From Deltaproteobacteria bacterium (GTDB lineage: Bacteria; Desulfobacterota; GWC2-55-46): DNA of 50,091 nt. A model generated the notes under the pieces. That model did not search any database. It was not told the origin of the DNA and was given only the letters and a program-made list of their open reading frames with translations. This document shows, in pieces, positions 1,880 to 11,717 of the stretch. Each line of letters begins with the position of its first letter. The stretch's first letter is position 1. The stretch is taken from contig JACRNO010000076.1 of the NCBI GenBank assembly GCA_016234855.1, forward strand, positions 1 to 50,091, written 5' to 3'. Both the position numbers and the translations under genes were made by a program.

Positions 1880-3799
<1,920 letters not shown>

Positions 3800-4308
3800 G
3801 CGCCTGTAATGGATACATGGCGGCACGGGGACGTATCCTGCGGGGATGGGGCGCGCGCCGTTTGCGCCTGGTCAATTCAATCCCGCGAGCGTCTTTAACG
3901 GTGTGATACGGCTTGGGGATTACGCCGCTATTTGCGGTTTTTGCTTTTAGAGCTGAGAAGGTATCTTGTCGTGTATTGCTGATAATGGTAACGAGGCGCC
4001 GCCTGTGTAAGCGTTTGCGGGTGGTTATGCGCAGCATCTTTTGGCCGGTTTCAATATCCTCCGGGTGTTAGTCACGCAATGTGCGTTGCGGCAAAGAGGT
4101 GAGGCCGGCCGTTTCGACAAACCTCTCCCAGTCCCTTCTTCAATGCCGCGGTCCGTCCGGCGCGGCTTCAGGTCCATCTATCATAATAGGGGCTCGTCCT
4201 GCCGTCCGGTGCCCGGGCGGGTGTTTTTGTCATTTGACCCGCATGCGGGCCTGTTCGAATGTAAGGCCTCGACGTATCGCTGCATAAGACCGGATACAGG
4301 TGAGCGCA
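3800..4308. other. 509-bp gap between ftsH and folP, nothing recognised
   Basis: No ORF here looks like a gene, and I see no tRNA, no terminator with a T-run, and none of the palindromic repeat families that fill the other gaps. A 5-bp stem with an 11-nt loop (GGCCT...AGGCC near 4249-4269) carries GTTCGAA but does not fit a tRNA arm. The folP promoter should lie here. Confidence 0.5.
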
Positions 4309-5526
4309 ATGAAAACGCCGGTAAGGTTACTCAACATCAATTCCCTGGAGCGCGCGGCCGCCGAGATGGAGCGCGTTGGCGTCGACCCGGTGGGCATTGA
4401 TATCATGGCGCCCAAGCAGTTCCATTATAACTTCAAGGTCGCCGGGCTTAAGCCGGCCCAGGCCAACGTCCTCAAGCAGGATGCGCTCTCCATCGGCGCG
4501 GAGGCCGCCGTGGCCAGGGGGGCGGCCTCTTGCTCCATAGAGACGTCCGACGCGATATTGTCGGGCACCGCGAGGCAGTTGGACCTGCTCATTGAGAAAC
4601 TCGCCATCCAGAGCTTCGACCTGCCGGAAGTGGCGCTTGCGCTGCGCAGAGCGCTTACGAATACCGGCAGGAGGAGCTTTGTCATTGCCGGGCGCAGCCG
4701 TCTGATGGAGGTCGGCGGCCGGACCCTCATAATGGGCATATTGAACGCGACCCCGGATTCCTTTTCCGACGGCGGACGGAACTTTGAGAAGGACAAGGCG
4801 ATAGAGCACGGGCTTCGCATGGCATCCGATGGCGCGGATTGGGTGGACGTCGGCGGCGAGTCCACCAGGCCCGGGGCCGGGCCGGTGCCGGTCGAGGAAG
4901 AACTGAGGCGCGTCGTGCCGGTGGTGGCCGCGCTTGCGGCCAACGGCGTCACGGTATCCATCGATACCATGAAGGCCGCGGTCGCAAAGGCGGCCCTGGA
5001 GGCCGGGGCCGAGATCGTCAACGACGTAAGCGCGCTCGGCATGGACGCCGCCATGGCTGGAGTATGCAGGGAGTATAACGCCCCCGTCATACTCATGCAC
5101 ATGCGCGCGGACCCGAGGACCATGCAGTATGACGTCGAATATGAGGACATCATGGCGTCGGTCTTCGCTTATCTCGCCGAAAGGATGGCGTATGCCGCGG
5201 ACCGCGGGATAGGCGCGAATAAGATAATCCTCGACCCTGGCATCGGTTTCGGCAAGGATGCCGGCGGCAATCTCGCGCTTATCAGGAACCTGGCCGAGTT
5301 CAAAAGCCTCGGCAGGCCGCTCCTCGTAGGCGCGTCGCGTAAATCGTTCATAGGCAGGATTACCGGAGAAGAGGTCTCCGGCAGGCTCTCCGGCACCATA
5401 GCGGCGCATACGGCGGCGATACTGAACGGCGCGAATATCGTCCGGGCGCATGACGTGGCCGCCGCGCGGTCCGCGGCCATGGTCGCGGATGCGATAATGC
5501 GGGAAGCGGCGAATTCCCCCATTTGA
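4309..5526 (+). CDS. folP: Dihydropteroate synthase, long form with N-terminal extension
   Basis: Condenses 6-hydroxymethyl-7,8-dihydropterin diphosphate with p-aminobenzoate to dihydropteroate in folate synthesis. The TIM-barrel domain starts near residue 135 with 'MGILNATPDSFSDGG', followed by 'GGESTRPGAGP', 'SIDTMKAAVAKAAL', 'ILDPGIGFGKD' and 'GASRKSFIG'. About 130 residues precede it, including 'IDIMAPKQFHYNFKVAGLK'; such an extension is known in deltaproteobacterial and some clostridial FolP proteins of about 400 aa and has no assigned role. The ATG at 4309, four bases after AGGTGAG, is preferred to the GTG at 4300. The next gene, cdaA, follows after 150 bp. Confidence 0.95.
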   Translation: MKTPVRLLNINSLERAAAEMERVGVDPVGIDIMAPKQFHYNFKVAGLKPAQANVLKQDALSIGAEAAVARGAASCSIETSDAILSGTARQLDLLIEKLAIQSFDLPEVALALRRALTNTGRRSFVIAGRSRLMEVGGRTLIMGILNATPDSFSDGGRNFEKDKAIEHGLRMASDGADWVDVGGESTRPGAGPVPVEEELRRVVPVVAALAANGVTVSIDTMKAAVAKAALEAGAEIVNDVSALGMDAAMAGVCREYNAPVILMHMRADPRTMQYDVEYEDIMASVFAYLAERMAYAADRGIGANKIILDPGIGFGKDAGGNLALIRNLAEFKSLGRPLLVGASRKSFIGRITGEEVSGRLSGTIAAHTAAILNGANIVRAHDVAAARSAAMVADAIMREAANSPI

Positions 5527-5676
5527 AAAAAAGGGGTAAGGGGGGATTTGAGGGCTGGCGTGCGGCCGGACCGGCGGGGCCTGTCCCAGCGTCGGGTTGA
5601 GGCGGCGCTCGTTCGCGTCTTATAGCGATAAATAAGGCGCGGTTGACCTGTCATACGGGATTCAAGGGCGGACTGG

Positions 5677-6465
5677 ATGGACATACTTTTAAGGCTTCAT
5701 AACATAGTCGAGGTCATCGATATCATCATCGTGGCCATGGTCATCTACTGGCTGATGCTGATGTTCAAAGGCTCGAAGGCGGAGCGGATGCTCTGGGGGC
5801 TCGGCGTTATCATCATCCTCTACTTCGTCTCCCAGAGGGTGGAGCTTCTGACGCTCCACTGGATTCTGAACAACTTCCTGAGTTCCATCGTAGTCTTTAT
5901 CATCGTCGTCTTTCAGCAGGACATCCGGCGCGCGCTGGCGCAGGTGGGCAGGCCTTTCAGTCTGGCCGATATCAAGGGGGCCGGGCCTTATATCGACGAG
6001 GCGGTCAAGGCCGTGGCGCGCATGTCCAGGGAGAAGACGGGCGCGCTTATCGTCTTCGAGCGGACCATGGACCTTGGCGATTATCTGGAGACCGGCGTCA
6101 CGCTCGACTCGAAGGTGACAAGGGAGATACTCCTTTCAATCTTCAACACCAGGTCTCCCCTGCATGACGGGGCGGTGGTGGTCAGGCAGGGCAGGGTCTT
6201 CAAGGCCGGGTGCATACTGCCGTTGACCGATAAGGACGTCTCCTCGGAGATGGGCACGAGGCACAGGGCGGCAATGGGGCTTGCCGAGGAGACGGACGCC
6301 GTTATCGTGGCAGTCTCCGAAGAGACCGGGGAGATAACGCTCGTGGTCGAGGATAAGGCGACGAAACGGATAGAGCCGGGCTGGCTTGCGGGCGAGCTCA
6401 AGAGACTTTTCCCGCCGGCTCCGGCCGCCAGGTGGCCGTTCTTTGCGTGGAGGAACGGGAAGTGA
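5677..6465 (+). CDS. cdaA: Diadenylate cyclase CdaA
   Basis: Makes cyclic di-AMP from two ATP. Three N-terminal membrane helices (about residues 10-30, 38-56, 62-82) are followed by a DisA_N domain with both catalytic signatures: DGA at 164-166 ('PLHDGAVVV') and GTRHR at 193-197. Length, 262 aa, is near the CdaA norm of about 270. The ATG at 5677 gives a standard 'MDILLRLHN' start. It sits directly before ybbR and glmM, the conserved cdaA-cdaR-glmM arrangement known from Firmicutes and also found in Geobacter-like bacteria, where YbbR and GlmM interact with the cyclase and adjust its activity. No c-di-AMP riboswitch is recognisable in the window. Confidence 0.95.
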   Translation: MDILLRLHNIVEVIDIIIVAMVIYWLMLMFKGSKAERMLWGLGVIIILYFVSQRVELLTLHWILNNFLSSIVVFIIVVFQQDIRRALAQVGRPFSLADIKGAGPYIDEAVKAVARMSREKTGALIVFERTMDLGDYLETGVTLDSKVTREILLSIFNTRSPLHDGAVVVRQGRVFKAGCILPLTDKDVSSEMGTRHRAAMGLAEETDAVIVAVSEETGEITLVVEDKATKRIEPGWLAGELKRLFPPAPAARWPFFAWRNGK

Positions 6466-6514
6466 TGCGTCGTCTATGTCAATCTTTTCAGGGAAGGCCG
6501 CCGCGGTGAGAGTC

Positions 6515-7153
6515 ATGCTTCTTAAAAACCTCCGGCTCAAGCTGATTTCCATTGCGTTTGCGTTTGCGTTATGGTTTTTTGTCGCCGGACAGTCCCCTAC
6601 GGAACTCGGTATCATGGTGCCGTTGGGCTATAAAGGCATGCCGAAGGATATGGTTATGACGAGCGCGCCGTTCGGCGAGGTCGAGGTCAGGGTAACGGGC
6701 CCGCGCTTCCTTCTGAATAATATAGAGCAGGGTAAGGTGATGGTGGAGCTTGACCTCGGCGCGGCCCGCGAGGGATTGAGCGTCGTCAGGATACTGCCGA
6801 AGGATATAAACGTCCCTATGGGGGTAAAGGTCGCGCGCGTCGTGCCGAGTTCCGTTGAGGTGCGTCTGGAGCGGCTCGCTGACGTGGAATTGCCGGTCAG
6901 GGTGAGGCTCTCCGGCCGCCCGGCTGCCGGCTACAGGGTCTCCGGCGTCGACGTGAGGCCGAAAAAGGTCATGGCGCGGGCCTTTGCAAGATATGCCTCT
7001 GATAAGGACGCGATATTTACGAGGCCAGTTGACGTGAACGGTCTTGCTAATTCCGTGGACAGATCCGTCGGCCTTGACGCGCCGGAAAACGAGTTTGTCA
7101 ACGTAAGCGACTATAACGTCAGGGTGAGGGTGACCATAACCGGGGAGCGTTGA
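6515..7153 (+). CDS. YbbR-domain (CdaR-like) membrane-anchored protein
   Basis: An N-terminal membrane anchor ('KLISIAFAFALWFFVAG') followed by YbbR-type beta domains, with patterns such as 'PLGYKGMPKDMVM' and 'VEVRVTGPRFLLNNI' for the first repeat and 'LPVRVRLSGRPAAGYRV' for the second. In the cdaA operon this protein is the regulator CdaR, which binds CdaA outside the cytoplasmic membrane. The ORF track starts at 6386, inside cdaA; the ATG at 6515, five bases after GGTGAG, gives the usual 'MLLKNLRLKL' start, though the ATG at 6476 is possible. With about 212 residues it is shorter than the four-domain Firmicutes forms, so probably two YbbR repeats are present. Confidence 0.85.
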   Translation: MLLKNLRLKLISIAFAFALWFFVAGQSPTELGIMVPLGYKGMPKDMVMTSAPFGEVEVRVTGPRFLLNNIEQGKVMVELDLGAAREGLSVVRILPKDINVPMGVKVARVVPSSVEVRLERLADVELPVRVRLSGRPAAGYRVSGVDVRPKKVMARAFARYASDKDAIFTRPVDVNGLANSVDRSVGLDAPENEFVNVSDYNVRVRVTITGER

Positions 7154-7226
7154 GCGCCGTGTTGCCGCGGATGGTATTGCTGCCTCTTCCTTGAAAGGCC
7201 GGGGCTTAAGAGGGATAATTCTTAAT

Positions 7227-7261
7227 GGCGCCTTGTGCGCTAACGTTGTGTTTTTGGCGCC
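7227..7261. repeat. GGCGCC-bounded 30-bp repeat, copy in the glmM leader
   Basis: The block TTGTGCGCTAACGTTGTG followed by TTTTTGGCGCC recurs with small changes at 22202-22230, 26747-26805 (inverted, doubled) and 26874-26901, with a partial copy at 22095-22115. Here it is bounded by GGCGCC on both sides and lies 33 bp before the glmM start. Confidence 0.75.
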
Positions 7262-7294
7262 TTGTTTTGCAAACACGGCGCAACAGGGGTGCGG

Positions 7295-8653
7295 ATGCAG
7301 ACGAAGAAGAGACTTTTCGGCACGGACGGCGTCAGGGGCGTGGCCAACATAAAACCGATGACCGCGGAGATAGCCTTGCAGCTCGGCCGGGCCATAGCCT
7401 ATATATCCAAGAAAGAGGCCCGCCGCCACAGGATAGTCATAGGTAAGGACACGAGGCTGTCCGGCTATATGCTCGAGAGCGCCATGATGGCCGGTATATG
7501 TTCGATGGGCGTCGACGCCCTTATGGTCGGCCCGCTGCCCACGCCGGGCATCGCCTTTCTCACGTCGAGCATGAGGGCGGACGCGGGCGTGGTCATATCG
7601 GCCTCGCACAATCCGTATCAGGATAACGGCATAAAATTTTTCTCGCGCGACGGGTTGAAGCTGCCGGACGATATAGAGCTTGAGATAGAGCGGTTCATCT
7701 TCGAAAATCACGACCCGTCGCACAGGCCCACGGCCAGCGAGGTTGGCAAGGCCTACAGGGTTGACGACGCCATAGGCCGCTACGTCGTATTCGCCAAGAA
7801 CACATTTCCGAAGGAACTGAGCCTCGACGGCCTGAAGGTCGCGGTCGACTGCGCCAACGGCGCCGCGTACAAGGTCGCGCCTGCCGTCTTTTACGAGCTC
7901 GGGGCCGAGGTCGTCTCCATAGGCGTAAAGCCGGACGGCGAGAATATAAACAAGGACTGCGGCGCGCTCCATCCCGAAAACGTCGCAAAGGCGGTCGTGG
8001 AGCACGGCGCTGATATCGGCTTTGCCATTGACGGAGACGGCGACCGCTGCATCATGGTGGACGAGAAAGGGCGCATACTCGACGGAGACCATATCATGGC
8101 CATCTCGGCCCTCGCGCTCATGAAGGAGGACAGGCTCAGGAAGAAGACCCTTGTTGCCACCATCATGAGCAATTCAGGGCTCGAGGCCGCGATAAAGGGC
8201 GCGGGCGGGCGGATGATAAGGACGAACGTCGGCGACAGGTGCGTGGTCGAGGAGATGCTCAAGGGCGGGTACAACCTCGGCGGCGAGCAGTCCGGCCACC
8301 TGATATACCTCGACCATACGACCACCGGCGACGGCGTTATAACCGCCTTGCAGATACTGGAGAGGGTCGTCAGGGACGGCAAAAAGGTATCCGAGCTTGC
8401 CAGGGTTATGCAGACCTTTCCGCAGGTCCTTGTAAACGTAAAGGTAAGGCAGAAGAAGGATATCGCGGATATGCCGCACGTATCCGCGCTCCTCAAGGCG
8501 CTGGAAAAACGCCTCAGGCACAAGGGCCGGGTATTTATCAGGTATTCGGGCACGGAACCCCTTGCGAGGATTACCGTGGAAGGCGAGCGCGAGGACGAGA
8601 TACGCGCCATGGCCGACGAGCTTGCCGTGTTGCTCAAAAAAGAGATAGGTTAG
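7295..8653 (+). CDS. glmM: Phosphoglucosamine mutase
   Basis: Interconverts glucosamine 6-phosphate and glucosamine 1-phosphate, feeding UDP-GlcNAc for peptidoglycan and lipopolysaccharide. It shows '[13 protein letters not shown]' at the N-terminus, the phosphoserine loop '[17 protein letters not shown]' with Ser104, the metal loop DGDGDR from Asp246, and the C-terminal phosphate loop '[11 protein letters not shown]'. Length (452 aa) is normal. The track uses an upstream TTG; the ATG at 7295, seven bases after AGGGG, fits the family start. It closes the cdaA-ybbR-glmM group. Confidence 0.97.
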
Positions 8654-8663
8654 CAGGCAAGAT

Positions 8664-8727
8664 GTGGTGGCAGGAGTTTCCTCCCGCCACTATCGAGGCT
8701 GATGCCGTCAGGAGGAAACTCCTGACA
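8664..8727. repeat. CAGGAGGAAACTCCTG-type palindromes after glmM
   Basis: Two palindromes of one family lie side by side: TGGCAGGAGTTTCCTCCCGCCA and GTCAGGAGGAAACTCCTGAC. Further members are at 26538-26563 and 45434-45504. Confidence 0.8.
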
Positions 8728-8750
8728 CACACAAAGTGCGAATCGAGGAC

Positions 8751-8816
8751 GTGGGAAGCGGGGCGTGGGAGGTGTTAAGAGATTTTTCCTCCCGCATCCT
8801 ATCGCCCGCTTCCCAC
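8751..8816. repeat. Long hairpin GTGGGAAGCGGG...CCCGCTTCCCAC before pdxJ
   Basis: The outer arms GTGGGAAGCGGG and CCCGCTTCCCAC are complementary, with an inner pair GGGAGG/CCTCCC. Related hairpins with GGGAAGCGGG and AGGTGGTAA motifs lie at 24012-24143 and 24532-24596. There is no T-run after the 3' arm. Confidence 0.75.
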
Positions 8817-8844
8817 AGCCCGGTCTTTAAAAGGAGTCTTTTCC

Positions 8845-9561
8845 ATGGCAACCCTTTCAGTAAACGTAGACCACGTGGCGACGGTGCGCAAGGCGCGCGC
8901 CTCGAACGAGCCTGACCCGGTCACGGCGGCGTTAGCGGCCGAGCTTGCCGGGGCCGACGGCATAACCGTCCATCTGCGCGAGGACAGGCGGCACATACAG
9001 GATAGAGACGTCTATCTTATGCGCAATATCCTGAAGACCAGGCTTAACCTTGAGATGGCCGCGACCAAAGAGATGCTTGCCGTGGCCCTTGAAATCAAGC
9101 CGGATATGGTAACGCTTGTGCCTGAAAAAAGGCAGGAACTTACCACCGAGGGCGGGCTTGACGTAAAGACGCAGCTTGAGCCGTTGAAGAAGTTCGTCGC
9201 GTCGCTCAAGGACGGCGGCATACCCGTGAACCTCTTCATAGACCCGCTGCCGGACGCGGTGAAGGCTAGCCACCGCATAGGCTCGGACGGCGTTGAGATA
9301 CATACGGGCAGGTATGCCGATGCCGCGCCCGGGGGTCGTGCCGAAGAACTCAAGAGGATACATGACGCCGTAATGCTCTCCAAGAGGGTGGGGTTAAAGA
9401 CCCACGCCGGACACGGCCTTGATTATCATAATATCGGGGCTGTAGCGGCCTTGAAAGAGATAGATGAATTTGCCATTGGTTTTTCCATCGTCGCCCGCAG
9501 CATATATACGGGCATGGCTGAGGCGGTAAGGGAGATGAAGAGGCTTATAGATGGGAGGTAG
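8845..9561 (+). CDS. pdxJ: Pyridoxine 5'-phosphate synthase
   Basis: Closes the ring of vitamin B6 from 1-deoxyxylulose 5-phosphate and 3-amino-2-oxopropyl phosphate in the DXP-dependent pathway. Family marks are 'LSVNVDHVATVRKAR' at the start, 'VHLREDRRHIQDRD' with the catalytic histidine region, 'EIHTGRYAD' and 'LKTHAGHGLDYHN'. Length is normal at 238 aa. The ATG is well placed after AAAAGGAGT. It is followed by a dispersed repeat and then acpS; pdxJ-acpS adjacency is widespread in proteobacteria. Confidence 0.97.
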   Translation: MATLSVNVDHVATVRKARASNEPDPVTAALAAELAGADGITVHLREDRRHIQDRDVYLMRNILKTRLNLEMAATKEMLAVALEIKPDMVTLVPEKRQELTTEGGLDVKTQLEPLKKFVASLKDGGIPVNLFIDPLPDAVKASHRIGSDGVEIHTGRYADAAPGGRAEELKRIHDAVMLSKRVGLKTHAGHGLDYHNIGAVAALKEIDEFAIGFSIVARSIYTGMAEAVREMKRLIDGR

Positions 9562-9577
9562 CAGGGGACGTGTGCTT

Positions 9578-9614
9578 GCCCCTTCTCCCCTTGGGGAGAA
9601 GGTTGGGATGAGGG
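9578..9614. repeat. CTTCTCCCCTTGGGGAGAAG palindrome with tail
   Basis: A palindrome CTTCTCCCC-TTGGGGAGAAG followed by GTTGGGATGAGGG. The same unit, interrupted by other elements, occurs in 26733-26830 and 26860-26990. Confidence 0.75.
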
Positions 9615-9725
9615 GGATTAAACAACGATTCTTGCGGTGTCAGTAGGAAAGTCATGACGCCGTAATAAAGGGTAATTGGCGATAAACGTTCTTTCCATTG
9701 TAGAGAGGGTTGGGGACGGACAGGC

Positions 9726-10082
9726 TTGATACACGGCGTCGGCATAGAGATAGTTGATATCGAACGGTTCCGTCTCGTGATGGAGCGGGGCGGGCAAAGG
9801 TTTCTTGAGCGCCTCTTCACGCGCTCCGAACTTGATTACTGTATGCGCCAGAGGCGTCCGCATGAGCATCTTGCAGCCCGCTTCGCCGCCAAGGTGAGCG
9901 TTATAAAGGCCGCGGGCGCGGCATTGAGTCTCAGGGTCAGGGATATCGAGGTCGTAAGGGGCGCAGGCAACAGGCCTGAAGTGCGCGTTACCGGGCTATG
10001 TACCGGGTTTACGGTTGCCGTCTCCATCTCGCATGACGGCGGCCTTGGCGTGGCACAGGCTATAATAGAGATGCAAGGTTAG
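9726..10082 (+). CDS. acpS: Holo-[acyl-carrier-protein] synthase, altered metal site
   Basis: Transfers 4'-phosphopantetheine from CoA to acyl carrier protein. Length (118 aa), position after pdxJ, and the pattern 'HGVGIEIVDIERF', 'ARFAAKVSVIKAAG' and C-terminal 'VAVSISHDGGLGVA' all say AcpS. Two positions expected to bind the metal differ. The usual GxD of 'G(I/L)GxDIVEI' is Glu here (GIEIV), and the near-invariant KE of 'RFAAKEA' reads KV: codon GTG where GAG is expected, one base apart. The gene is intact otherwise. The start is a TTG eight bases after GGGGA. It is either a divergent enzyme, an inactive copy with another AcpS elsewhere, or one sequence error. Confidence 0.85.
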   Translation: MIHGVGIEIVDIERFRLVMERGGQRFLERLFTRSELDYCMRQRRPHEHLAARFAAKVSVIKAAGAALSLRVRDIEVVRGAGNRPEVRVTGLCTGFTVAVSISHDGGLGVAQAIIEMQG

Positions 10083-10145: not shown

Positions 10146-11717
10146 TTGAAGCTCGCTATTGCCGATACCATTCGTGAGATAGACAGGGCGGCTGTCGAGG
10201 ATTACGGCATGACAGGCGCCCAACTCATGGAAAACGCGGGCCGCGGCGTGGCCTGCGCCGTGCTGGCCGAGCTTGCATCGACAGGCGCGAAAGGCCGCGT
10301 TGCCGTCATCGCGGGCAAGGGCAATAACGGCGGGGACGGCTACGTCGCGGCCAGACACCTTCGGAACGCCGGTCTTGACGTCATGGTATTTTCCCTTGCA
10401 AGGCCGTCCGAATTGAAGGGCGACGCCGCGCTTAACGCGAAGGTCTGGGCGCGGATGGGCGGGGCAACTGCAGGTATCATCACGAAGGCGGATATTCGCA
10501 GGCACGCCCCTGCCATCAGGCATGCCTGCATAATAGTGGACGCTATCTTCGGGGTCGGGCTCAAGACGCCTGTCAAGGGCGTCCATGCCGAGGCCATCGA
10601 ATTCATAAATTCCATCGGTAAAAAGATTGTTGCCGTTGACGTGCCGTCCGGCATAGACGCCGGGAGCGGCGCGGTCATGGGCGCGGCAATCAAGGCCTCG
10701 TTGACCGTCACCATGGCAATGCCGAAGCCAGGGCTTTACCTGTATCCCGGCAGAGAATATGCGGGCAGGGTCGAGGTCGTTGATATAGGTGTGCCTGTGG
10801 CGCTCCTTGCGGCAGCGGGCGATACGAGCGGTTATAGCCTGATTACGCCGGATGACGTGGCCGTTGTGCTGAGGCCGCGTAACGCTGATTCGCATAAGGG
10901 CAGCTACGGGCATTTATTTGTGCTTGCGGGTTCGCCGGGCAAGACCGGCGCAGCATACATGTGTGCAACAGGGGGGATGAGGGCAGGGGCCGGGCTTACG
11001 ACCATCGGCCTGCCGGAAAGCCTTGAGCCTGTCATGGAAGCGAAGACGACCGAGGTGATGACAACCGGGCTGCCGGAGACTGCCGGGCATCTCCTTGGCA
11101 GCGTGTCGTTTGAGGCGGTCTGTGCCGTGCTAAAGGGCAAGGCTGCCGTTGTAATAGGCCCTGGCATTGGCCTTGATGTTGATACGACCGGTTTTCTCAA
11201 ACGGCTGCTGAAGGTCTTAAAGTCGCCGGTTGTGATAGACGCGGACGGTCTTGGCGCATTTGTCGGGTGCGTTAAGACCTTGCGCGAGGTGAAAGCCCCG
11301 CTTGTCCTTACCCCGCACCCGGGCGAGATGGCGCGGCTGCTTGATATGAAGACAACTGAAGTGCAGGCCGACAGGCCGGGCGCCGCGCGAAGGCTCTGCG
11401 CGATGACCGGCGCGGTAGTAGTGCTCAAGGGCGCGGCCACAATCGTTGCCGCGCCGGATGGCGGGATATTCATAAACCCGACCGGCAATGCCGGGCTTGC
11501 CACCGCAGGCACCGGCGACGTGCTGGCCGGTATGATAGGCGGACTTCTGTCTCAGGGCTACGGCCCGGTCGAGGCGGCCTGCGCAGCGGTCTACATACAC
11601 GGCGCTGCGGCAGACGAGGTGAAGGCTGCAAGCGGCGAGACAGGCATGATGGCAACAGACCTTCTGCCCGTGATACCGGGGGTAATGCGCTCGCTATGCA
11701 GGACGCCGGGCGCATGA
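10146..11717 (+). CDS. nnr: Bifunctional NAD(P)H-hydrate repair enzyme Nnr
   Basis: Repairs hydrated NADH and NADPH. The N-terminal epimerase domain (about 1-215) has 'GKGNNGGDGYVAARHL' and 'VDVPSGIDAG'. The C-terminal ADP/ATP-dependent dehydratase domain (about 225-515) has 'GSPGKTGAAYM', 'LTPHPGEMARLL', 'VVLKGAATIVA' and 'GNAGLATAGTGDVLAGM'. At 523 aa both domains are complete. The start is a TTG that follows a 7-bp tandem array rather than a Shine-Dalgarno site. Its stop codon overlaps the tsaE start in ATGA, so the two are probably translationally coupled; the nnr-tsaE pair is common in bacteria. Confidence 0.95.
   Translation: MKLAIADTIREIDRAAVEDYGMTGAQLMENAGRGVACAVLAELASTGAKGRVAVIAGKGNNGGDGYVAARHLRNAGLDVMVFSLARPSELKGDAALNAKVWARMGGATAGIITKADIRRHAPAIRHACIIVDAIFGVGLKTPVKGVHAEAIEFINSIGKKIVAVDVPSGIDAGSGAVMGAAIKASLTVTMAMPKPGLYLYPGREYAGRVEVVDIGVPVALLAAAGDTSGYSLITPDDVAVVLRPRNADSHKGSYGHLFVLAGSPGKTGAAYMCATGGMRAGAGLTTIGLPESLEPVMEAKTTEVMTTGLPETAGHLLGSVSFEAVCAVLKGKAAVVIGPGIGLDVDTTGFLKRLLKVLKSPVVIDADGLGAFVGCVKTLREVKAPLVLTPHPGEMARLLDMKTTEVQADRPGAARRLCAMTGAVVVLKGAATIVAAPDGGIFINPTGNAGLATAGTGDVLAGMIGGLLSQGYGPVEAACAAVYIHGAAADEVKAASGETGMMATDLLPVIPGVMRSLCRTPGA

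Follow-up and report, generated by a model that had tools for sequence, protein, structure and literature searches.

A holo-ACP synthase needs acidic residues to act, and the acpS-like gene that lies between pdxJ and nnr in the window (the whole 50,091-nucleotide stretch of a Deltaproteobacteria bacterium genome analysed here) raises the question of what such a protein does once one that is conserved in all PPTases has gone. The initial annotation read GIEIV at the first metal-binding motif and a GTG codon where GAG is usual (KV for KE) at the other, and both readings are confirmed in the open reading frame (Table 1). The fold had also been judged to be otherwise intact, and this holds: the 118-residue product, which begins at a TTG codon, scores 56.9 bits against Pfam ACPS (PF01648; cut-off 25) and 70.9 bits against TIGR00516 (acpS; cut-off 59.8), and its AlphaFold2 monomer model (pLDDT 93.5) has the AcpS fold, with TM scores of 0.85–0.87 to the solved structures of S. 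coelicolor and B. subtilis AcpS. Both its sequence and its fold place the protein in the AcpS family. The pdxJ–acpS gap is 164 bp (9562–9725) in the window genome; in G001, a genome of the same genus, the gap is shorter and acpS begins with ATG, and the copy of this genus carries a 2-residue insertion.

Table 1. Features of the pdxJ–acpS–nnr region, in window positions; residue numbers follow B. subtilis AcpS.
Feature	Position	Strand	Evidence
pdxJ (PNP synthase), upstream neighbour	8845..9561	+	ORF; same-strand pdxJ in 37/37 Glu-less loci
AcpS-like gene without catalytic Glu (pdxJ-linked, PDX copy)	9726..10082	+	ORF; Pfam ACPS 56.9 bits; fold TM 0.85–0.87
GAG Glu codon at the Asp8 metal-ligand position (GIEIV)	9747..9749	+	Sequence; alignment to B. 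subtilis AcpS
GTG Val codon in place of Glu58, the Glu-I of all PPTases (FAAKVS; FAAKVSVIK)	9894..9896	+	Sequence; Glu in 0/37 relatives
Kept Lys62-equivalent codon (general acid / alpha-phosphate contact)	9906..9908	+	K in 37/37
Codon for a kept His at position 105 (SISHD), on the opposite edge of the CoA site	10032..10034	+	H in 37/37
nnr (NAD(P)HX epimerase/dehydratase), downstream neighbour	10146..11717	+	ORF; same-strand nnr in 36/37 loci, remaining contig cut

In the AcpS trimer the CoA site is located between adjacent subunits: one contributes Asp8, Glu57/58 and Lys61/62, the other the His/Arg edge, with Ser, His (or Asp) and the residues that bind the 3′-phosphate. In V. cholerae Asp8, Glu57 and Lys61 come from one subunit and Ser111, Asp112, Lys51 and His80 from the other (PMC3447402). 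All PPTs are described as sharing one glutamate, termed Glu-I, which in M. tuberculosis AcpS reaches Mg through water only (PMC3447402). In human PPT the E181A and E181Q substitutions cost about three orders of magnitude of kcat and affect the Km for CoA little, whereas H111A halves kcat and weakens the binding of CoA and Mg (PMC2148441). In SchPPT and Hppt activity requires the first and third Mg residues and is abolished when Glu-I is replaced (PMC4103896). Compared with group I AcpS (B. subtilis 1f7l/1f80, S. coelicolor 2jbz), the pdxJ-linked copy has the same fold, length and CoA-binding His, Arg and Lys residues, but it lacks the universal Glu, often has Glu in place of Asp8, and occurs in genomes that have a second AcpS or are too incomplete to show one.

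Relatives were gathered by a PF01648 search of the genome and its relatives, supplemented by a profile of the Glu-less copies, and the loci were aligned; pdxJ-linked copies are referred to as PDX and unlinked copies as PAR. Glu58 is missing from PDX in all 28 genomes of the family in which the locus is assembled and in nine further genomes of the order. At this position the 37 copies have Val (26), Ile, Ala or Leu (two each), or Met, Lys, Thr, Asn or Arg (one each), and the neighbouring residue 59 is Ser in 35 and Ser or Cys in 36 of them; 19 of 22 normal copies have Ala there. Residue 8 (n = 36) is Asp in 26, Glu in nine and Tyr in one. Feature by feature, PDX matches an active AcpS in Lys62 and in the CoA-binding edge formed by His105 and Arg53 (each kept in 37/37, as is Pro87) and differs in a defining one, Glu-I, which is Val in the window protein and absent from all 37 orthologues; Lys57 is also invariant, and the Arg residues that face ACP are invariant or nearly so. 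In the remaining 22 genomes of the class, PDX sits in the same operon position and has Glu58 (22/22) and Asp8 (21/21). Beyond the Glu-less lineage, none of 88 other loci checked lacked Glu58, in a sample partly biased by a search pattern that requires Arg53, and every named Glu-less locus belongs to this one lineage. The relatives that carry names are assemblies from metagenomes; most bear the label Deltaproteobacteria, and several are from groundwater. On a tree of PdxJ and Nnr, residue 58 changes between Glu and other states at least three times; the tree of the AcpS copies themselves is poorly resolved within the operon clade.

These distributions bear unequally on the original reading of the gene. 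Of the two metal ligands held to be changed, Glu58 is lost, while position 8 is still acidic and its Glu recurs in 9 of 36 copies; on sequence comparison, the Asp-to-Glu change (GIEIV) is conservative, minor and recurrent, and the Glu-to-Val change is a real loss. The proposal that the enzyme may be altered or inactive gains support, since the residue that has gone is conserved in all PPTases and human PPT without it loses ~1000-fold in kcat (PMC2148441). A misread base at the GTG codon, also suggested, is rejected: nothing was found in its favour, and the same Glu is missing from 36 other genome assemblies (27 of the family and nine elsewhere in the order) with nine different replacements. 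Relatives with the normal KE motif, which would have spoken against the annotation, appear in the alignment only outside this lineage.

A search for another AcpS, recommended at the outset, revealed one in the window genome on contig C46 (locus L001, 1489–1899). This PAR copy has GVDIV and FAAKEAV motifs and retains Asp8, Glu58, Lys62, Arg53 and His105, a complete active site; its closest structural match is V. cholerae AcpS (3qmn). PAR accompanies Glu-less PDX in 35 of 37 genomes; the two that lack it are 85% and 61% complete. None of the order's seven genomes with Glu-bearing PDX has it. Among the PAR copies of the order Asp8, Glu58 and Lys62 are each present in 40/40, Arg53 in 30/40, Pro87 in 30/39 and His105, mostly replaced by Tyr, in only 4/40; Arg53 and His105 are both missing in nine of the 40. 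Outside the order, six genomes of family f13 have both copies with Glu in both, and the His105-to-Tyr state is already present there while PDX still has its Glu. Fisher values for the association of Glu58 loss with the second copy ignore phylogeny, and an independent-pairs test had too few pairs (1–3) to reach significance; the correlation rests on few events because Glu58 changes only about three times on the tree. Mirror-tree covariation between PDX and PAR was positive and is not specific, as PAR covaries equally with PdxJ.

The Glu-less gene has been kept. It is retained in 37/37 genomes with the locus assembled, with an intact frame in 36, and a loss of PDX from three assemblies that have PAR (G036, G010 and G019) is not supported, as they lack the whole pdxJ–nnr locus. 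Between close relatives the dN/dS of Glu-less PDX is mostly 0.08–0.35, in some genera below that of the partner. In the window genus it is 0.29, and PDX there looks to be under more relaxed selection. These data establish that the operon acpS of the order became a Glu58-less paralogue under purifying selection and that PAR keeps the metal side of the site (Asp8, Glu58, Lys62) but has mostly lost its His105/Arg53 edge.

It is tentatively proposed, at somewhat less than even probability, that PDX and PAR together form a hetero-oligomeric, two-gene holo-ACP synthase that would act like an unfused Sfp. The two proteins would assemble as mixed AcpS-type oligomers with the productive CoA site at the interface, where the PAR subunit would supply Mg2+ binding and catalysis (Asp8, Glu58, Lys62) and the PDX subunit the edge that holds the 3′-phosphate and alpha-phosphate of CoA, a division of labour that would place the N- and C-halves of Sfp-type enzymes on two genes. 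Such a composite site explains the Glu loss of PDX and the edge loss of PAR at once. The stricter form, an obligately heteromeric PPTase derived from a homotrimeric AcpS through duplication and reciprocal loss, is put forward more hesitantly still. Given the effect of Glu-I mutations in other PPTs and the described universality of the residue, the window protein would hardly be effective by itself, but it could complete a site with PAR. The PAR of the window genome, in which His105 and Arg53 were either retained or restored, has a complete active site, so that pairing would not be obligatory there and may be optional. Several observations do not fit a composite site well: the conservation of Lys62 and of the ACP-facing Arg residues in PDX exceeds what a pure donor of the His edge would need, V. 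cholerae AcpS works alone without His105 and PAR might do so too, family f13 has the His105-to-Tyr change beside a Glu-bearing PDX, and in G001 PDX has an in-frame TAG though the partner copy lacks His105.

Profiles of the N-half of Sfp/AASDHPPT (group II) proteins are in keeping with the proposed division. PF22624 matched 26/37 Glu-less PDX, 15/22 normal PDX and 1/38 PAR copies, and PF17837 matched 12/37, 8/22 and 1/38, respectively, all with scores below the curated cut-offs; PF01648 matched all PDX and PAR copies compared. PDX thus retains an N-half character that PAR has lost. Among solved AcpS proteins used as controls, those of B. subtilis and B. anthracis match the N-half models and that of V. 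cholerae, with Asp at 105, does not; the latter functions alone, so the non-matching of PAR is no proof that it depends on a partner. In Sfp/AASDHPPT the His/Arg edge is carried by the N-half and the Asp and Glu ligands by the C-half, and PDX and PAR may divide these roles likewise: the reciprocal loss of metal acids and His edge is seen in most genomes and is incomplete in the window genome. The two systems differ in that Sfp-type enzymes are single two-half chains of more than ~220 residues, whereas here a 118-residue protein and its partner are encoded by separate genes and PDX keeps Lys62 and, mostly, Asp8. The window protein is accordingly no Sfp-type enzyme, even if the pair may act like one.

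The main alternative, somewhat less probable still, is that PAR is the sole working PPTase and PDX a CoA-binding, perhaps ACP-binding, pseudoenzyme with a sensing, inhibiting or chaperoning role towards CoA or ACP. PDX keeps all CoA-binding determinants (Arg53, Ser/Thr102, His105, Lys62) and lacks the catalytic Glu only, which recalls the human PPT E181 mutants that bind CoA yet fail in catalysis (PMC2148441). This alternative accounts for the invariant Lys62 better than a composite site does. PAR could be self-sufficient: V. cholerae AcpS, which like most PAR copies lacks His105 (it has Asp there), is an active homotrimer for which no partner is known, and the window-genome PAR with its full active site could be so under either reading. 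However, a CoA-binding PDX gives no account of the loss by PAR of His105 in 36/40 copies, or of Arg53 and His105 together in 9/40, and no partner or regulatory feature for it was found.

That PDX is still an active PPTase with an altered metal site, in which water, Glu8 or Ser59 would compensate for Glu58, is unlikely. The Asp or Glu at position 8 (35/36), Lys62 (37/37) and Ser or Cys at 59 (36/37) would suit it, as would the water-only contact of Glu-I with Mg in M. tuberculosis AcpS (PMC3447402). Against it stand the universality of Glu-I and the price of replacing it, a roughly 1000-fold drop in the kcat of human PPT (PMC2148441) and the loss of all activity in SchPPT and Hppt (PMC4103896); the replacements (V, L, I, M, A, T, N, K and R) are too diverse chemically for one specific new ligand, and the loss is confined to genomes that also carry a Glu-bearing AcpS (35/37; the rest incomplete). 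Even less credence is given to PDX being a drifting relic, redundant once the second AcpS took over. The in-frame TAG in G001 and the more relaxed PDX of the window genus (dN/dS 0.29, 2-residue insertion) point in this direction, but the presence of PDX in all 37 assembled loci, its 36 intact frames, purifying selection and the invariant His105, Arg53, Lys57 and Lys62 all speak against it. A simple pseudogene is rejected for the order on dN/dS and retention, and is possible for the window genus alone. The TAG of G001 (L032, G001:C27) is a single stop at PDX codon 13 (~1473–1475) in a frame that is otherwise intact, and represents either a nonsense mutation or an assembly error.

The loss, across most of an order, of Glu-I from an AcpS at a housekeeping locus contrasts with the description of this residue as universal in PPTases, and it means that the automatic label 'holo-ACP synthase' (TIGR00516) falls on a gene whose product probably cannot act alone. 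The PDX/PAR pair, hosted by a lineage that spans most of one order of uncultured bacteria, offers a natural experiment on how a homotrimer with interfacial sites may split into complementary subunits, a step thought to underlie Sfp-type enzymes. An obligate heteromer, if it exists here, would be a present-day counterpart of the unfused stage presumed in their history, and the question is testable with two small proteins. An inactive or Glu58-less AcpS, a PPTase pseudoenzyme and a heteromeric PPTase were not found in the literature searched, of which coverage was partial.

An extra PF01648 domain was detected in longer frames (~250–1600 residues) of a few relatives (G016:C3, G034:C66, G030:C24, G009:C132 and G013:C335); these are probably Sfp-type or PKS-borne PPTases, so that the AcpS pair is not the sole possible source of PPTase activity in those genomes. 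The neighbours of PAR in the window genome, with functions read from their sequences, are SDR/FabG-like, ACP, FabZ-like, small exported, glycosyltransferase and methyltransferase-like proteins, and this cluster looks like a dedicated lipid or secondary acyl pathway. The order SDR/FabG-like, ACP, FabZ-like, small exported protein, AcpS, glycosyltransferase, methyltransferase-like is conserved between L223 (G000:C46, ~2740–6900) and L226 (G056, ~5453–9341), and the cluster recurs in some members of the window's family and in the distant family f13.
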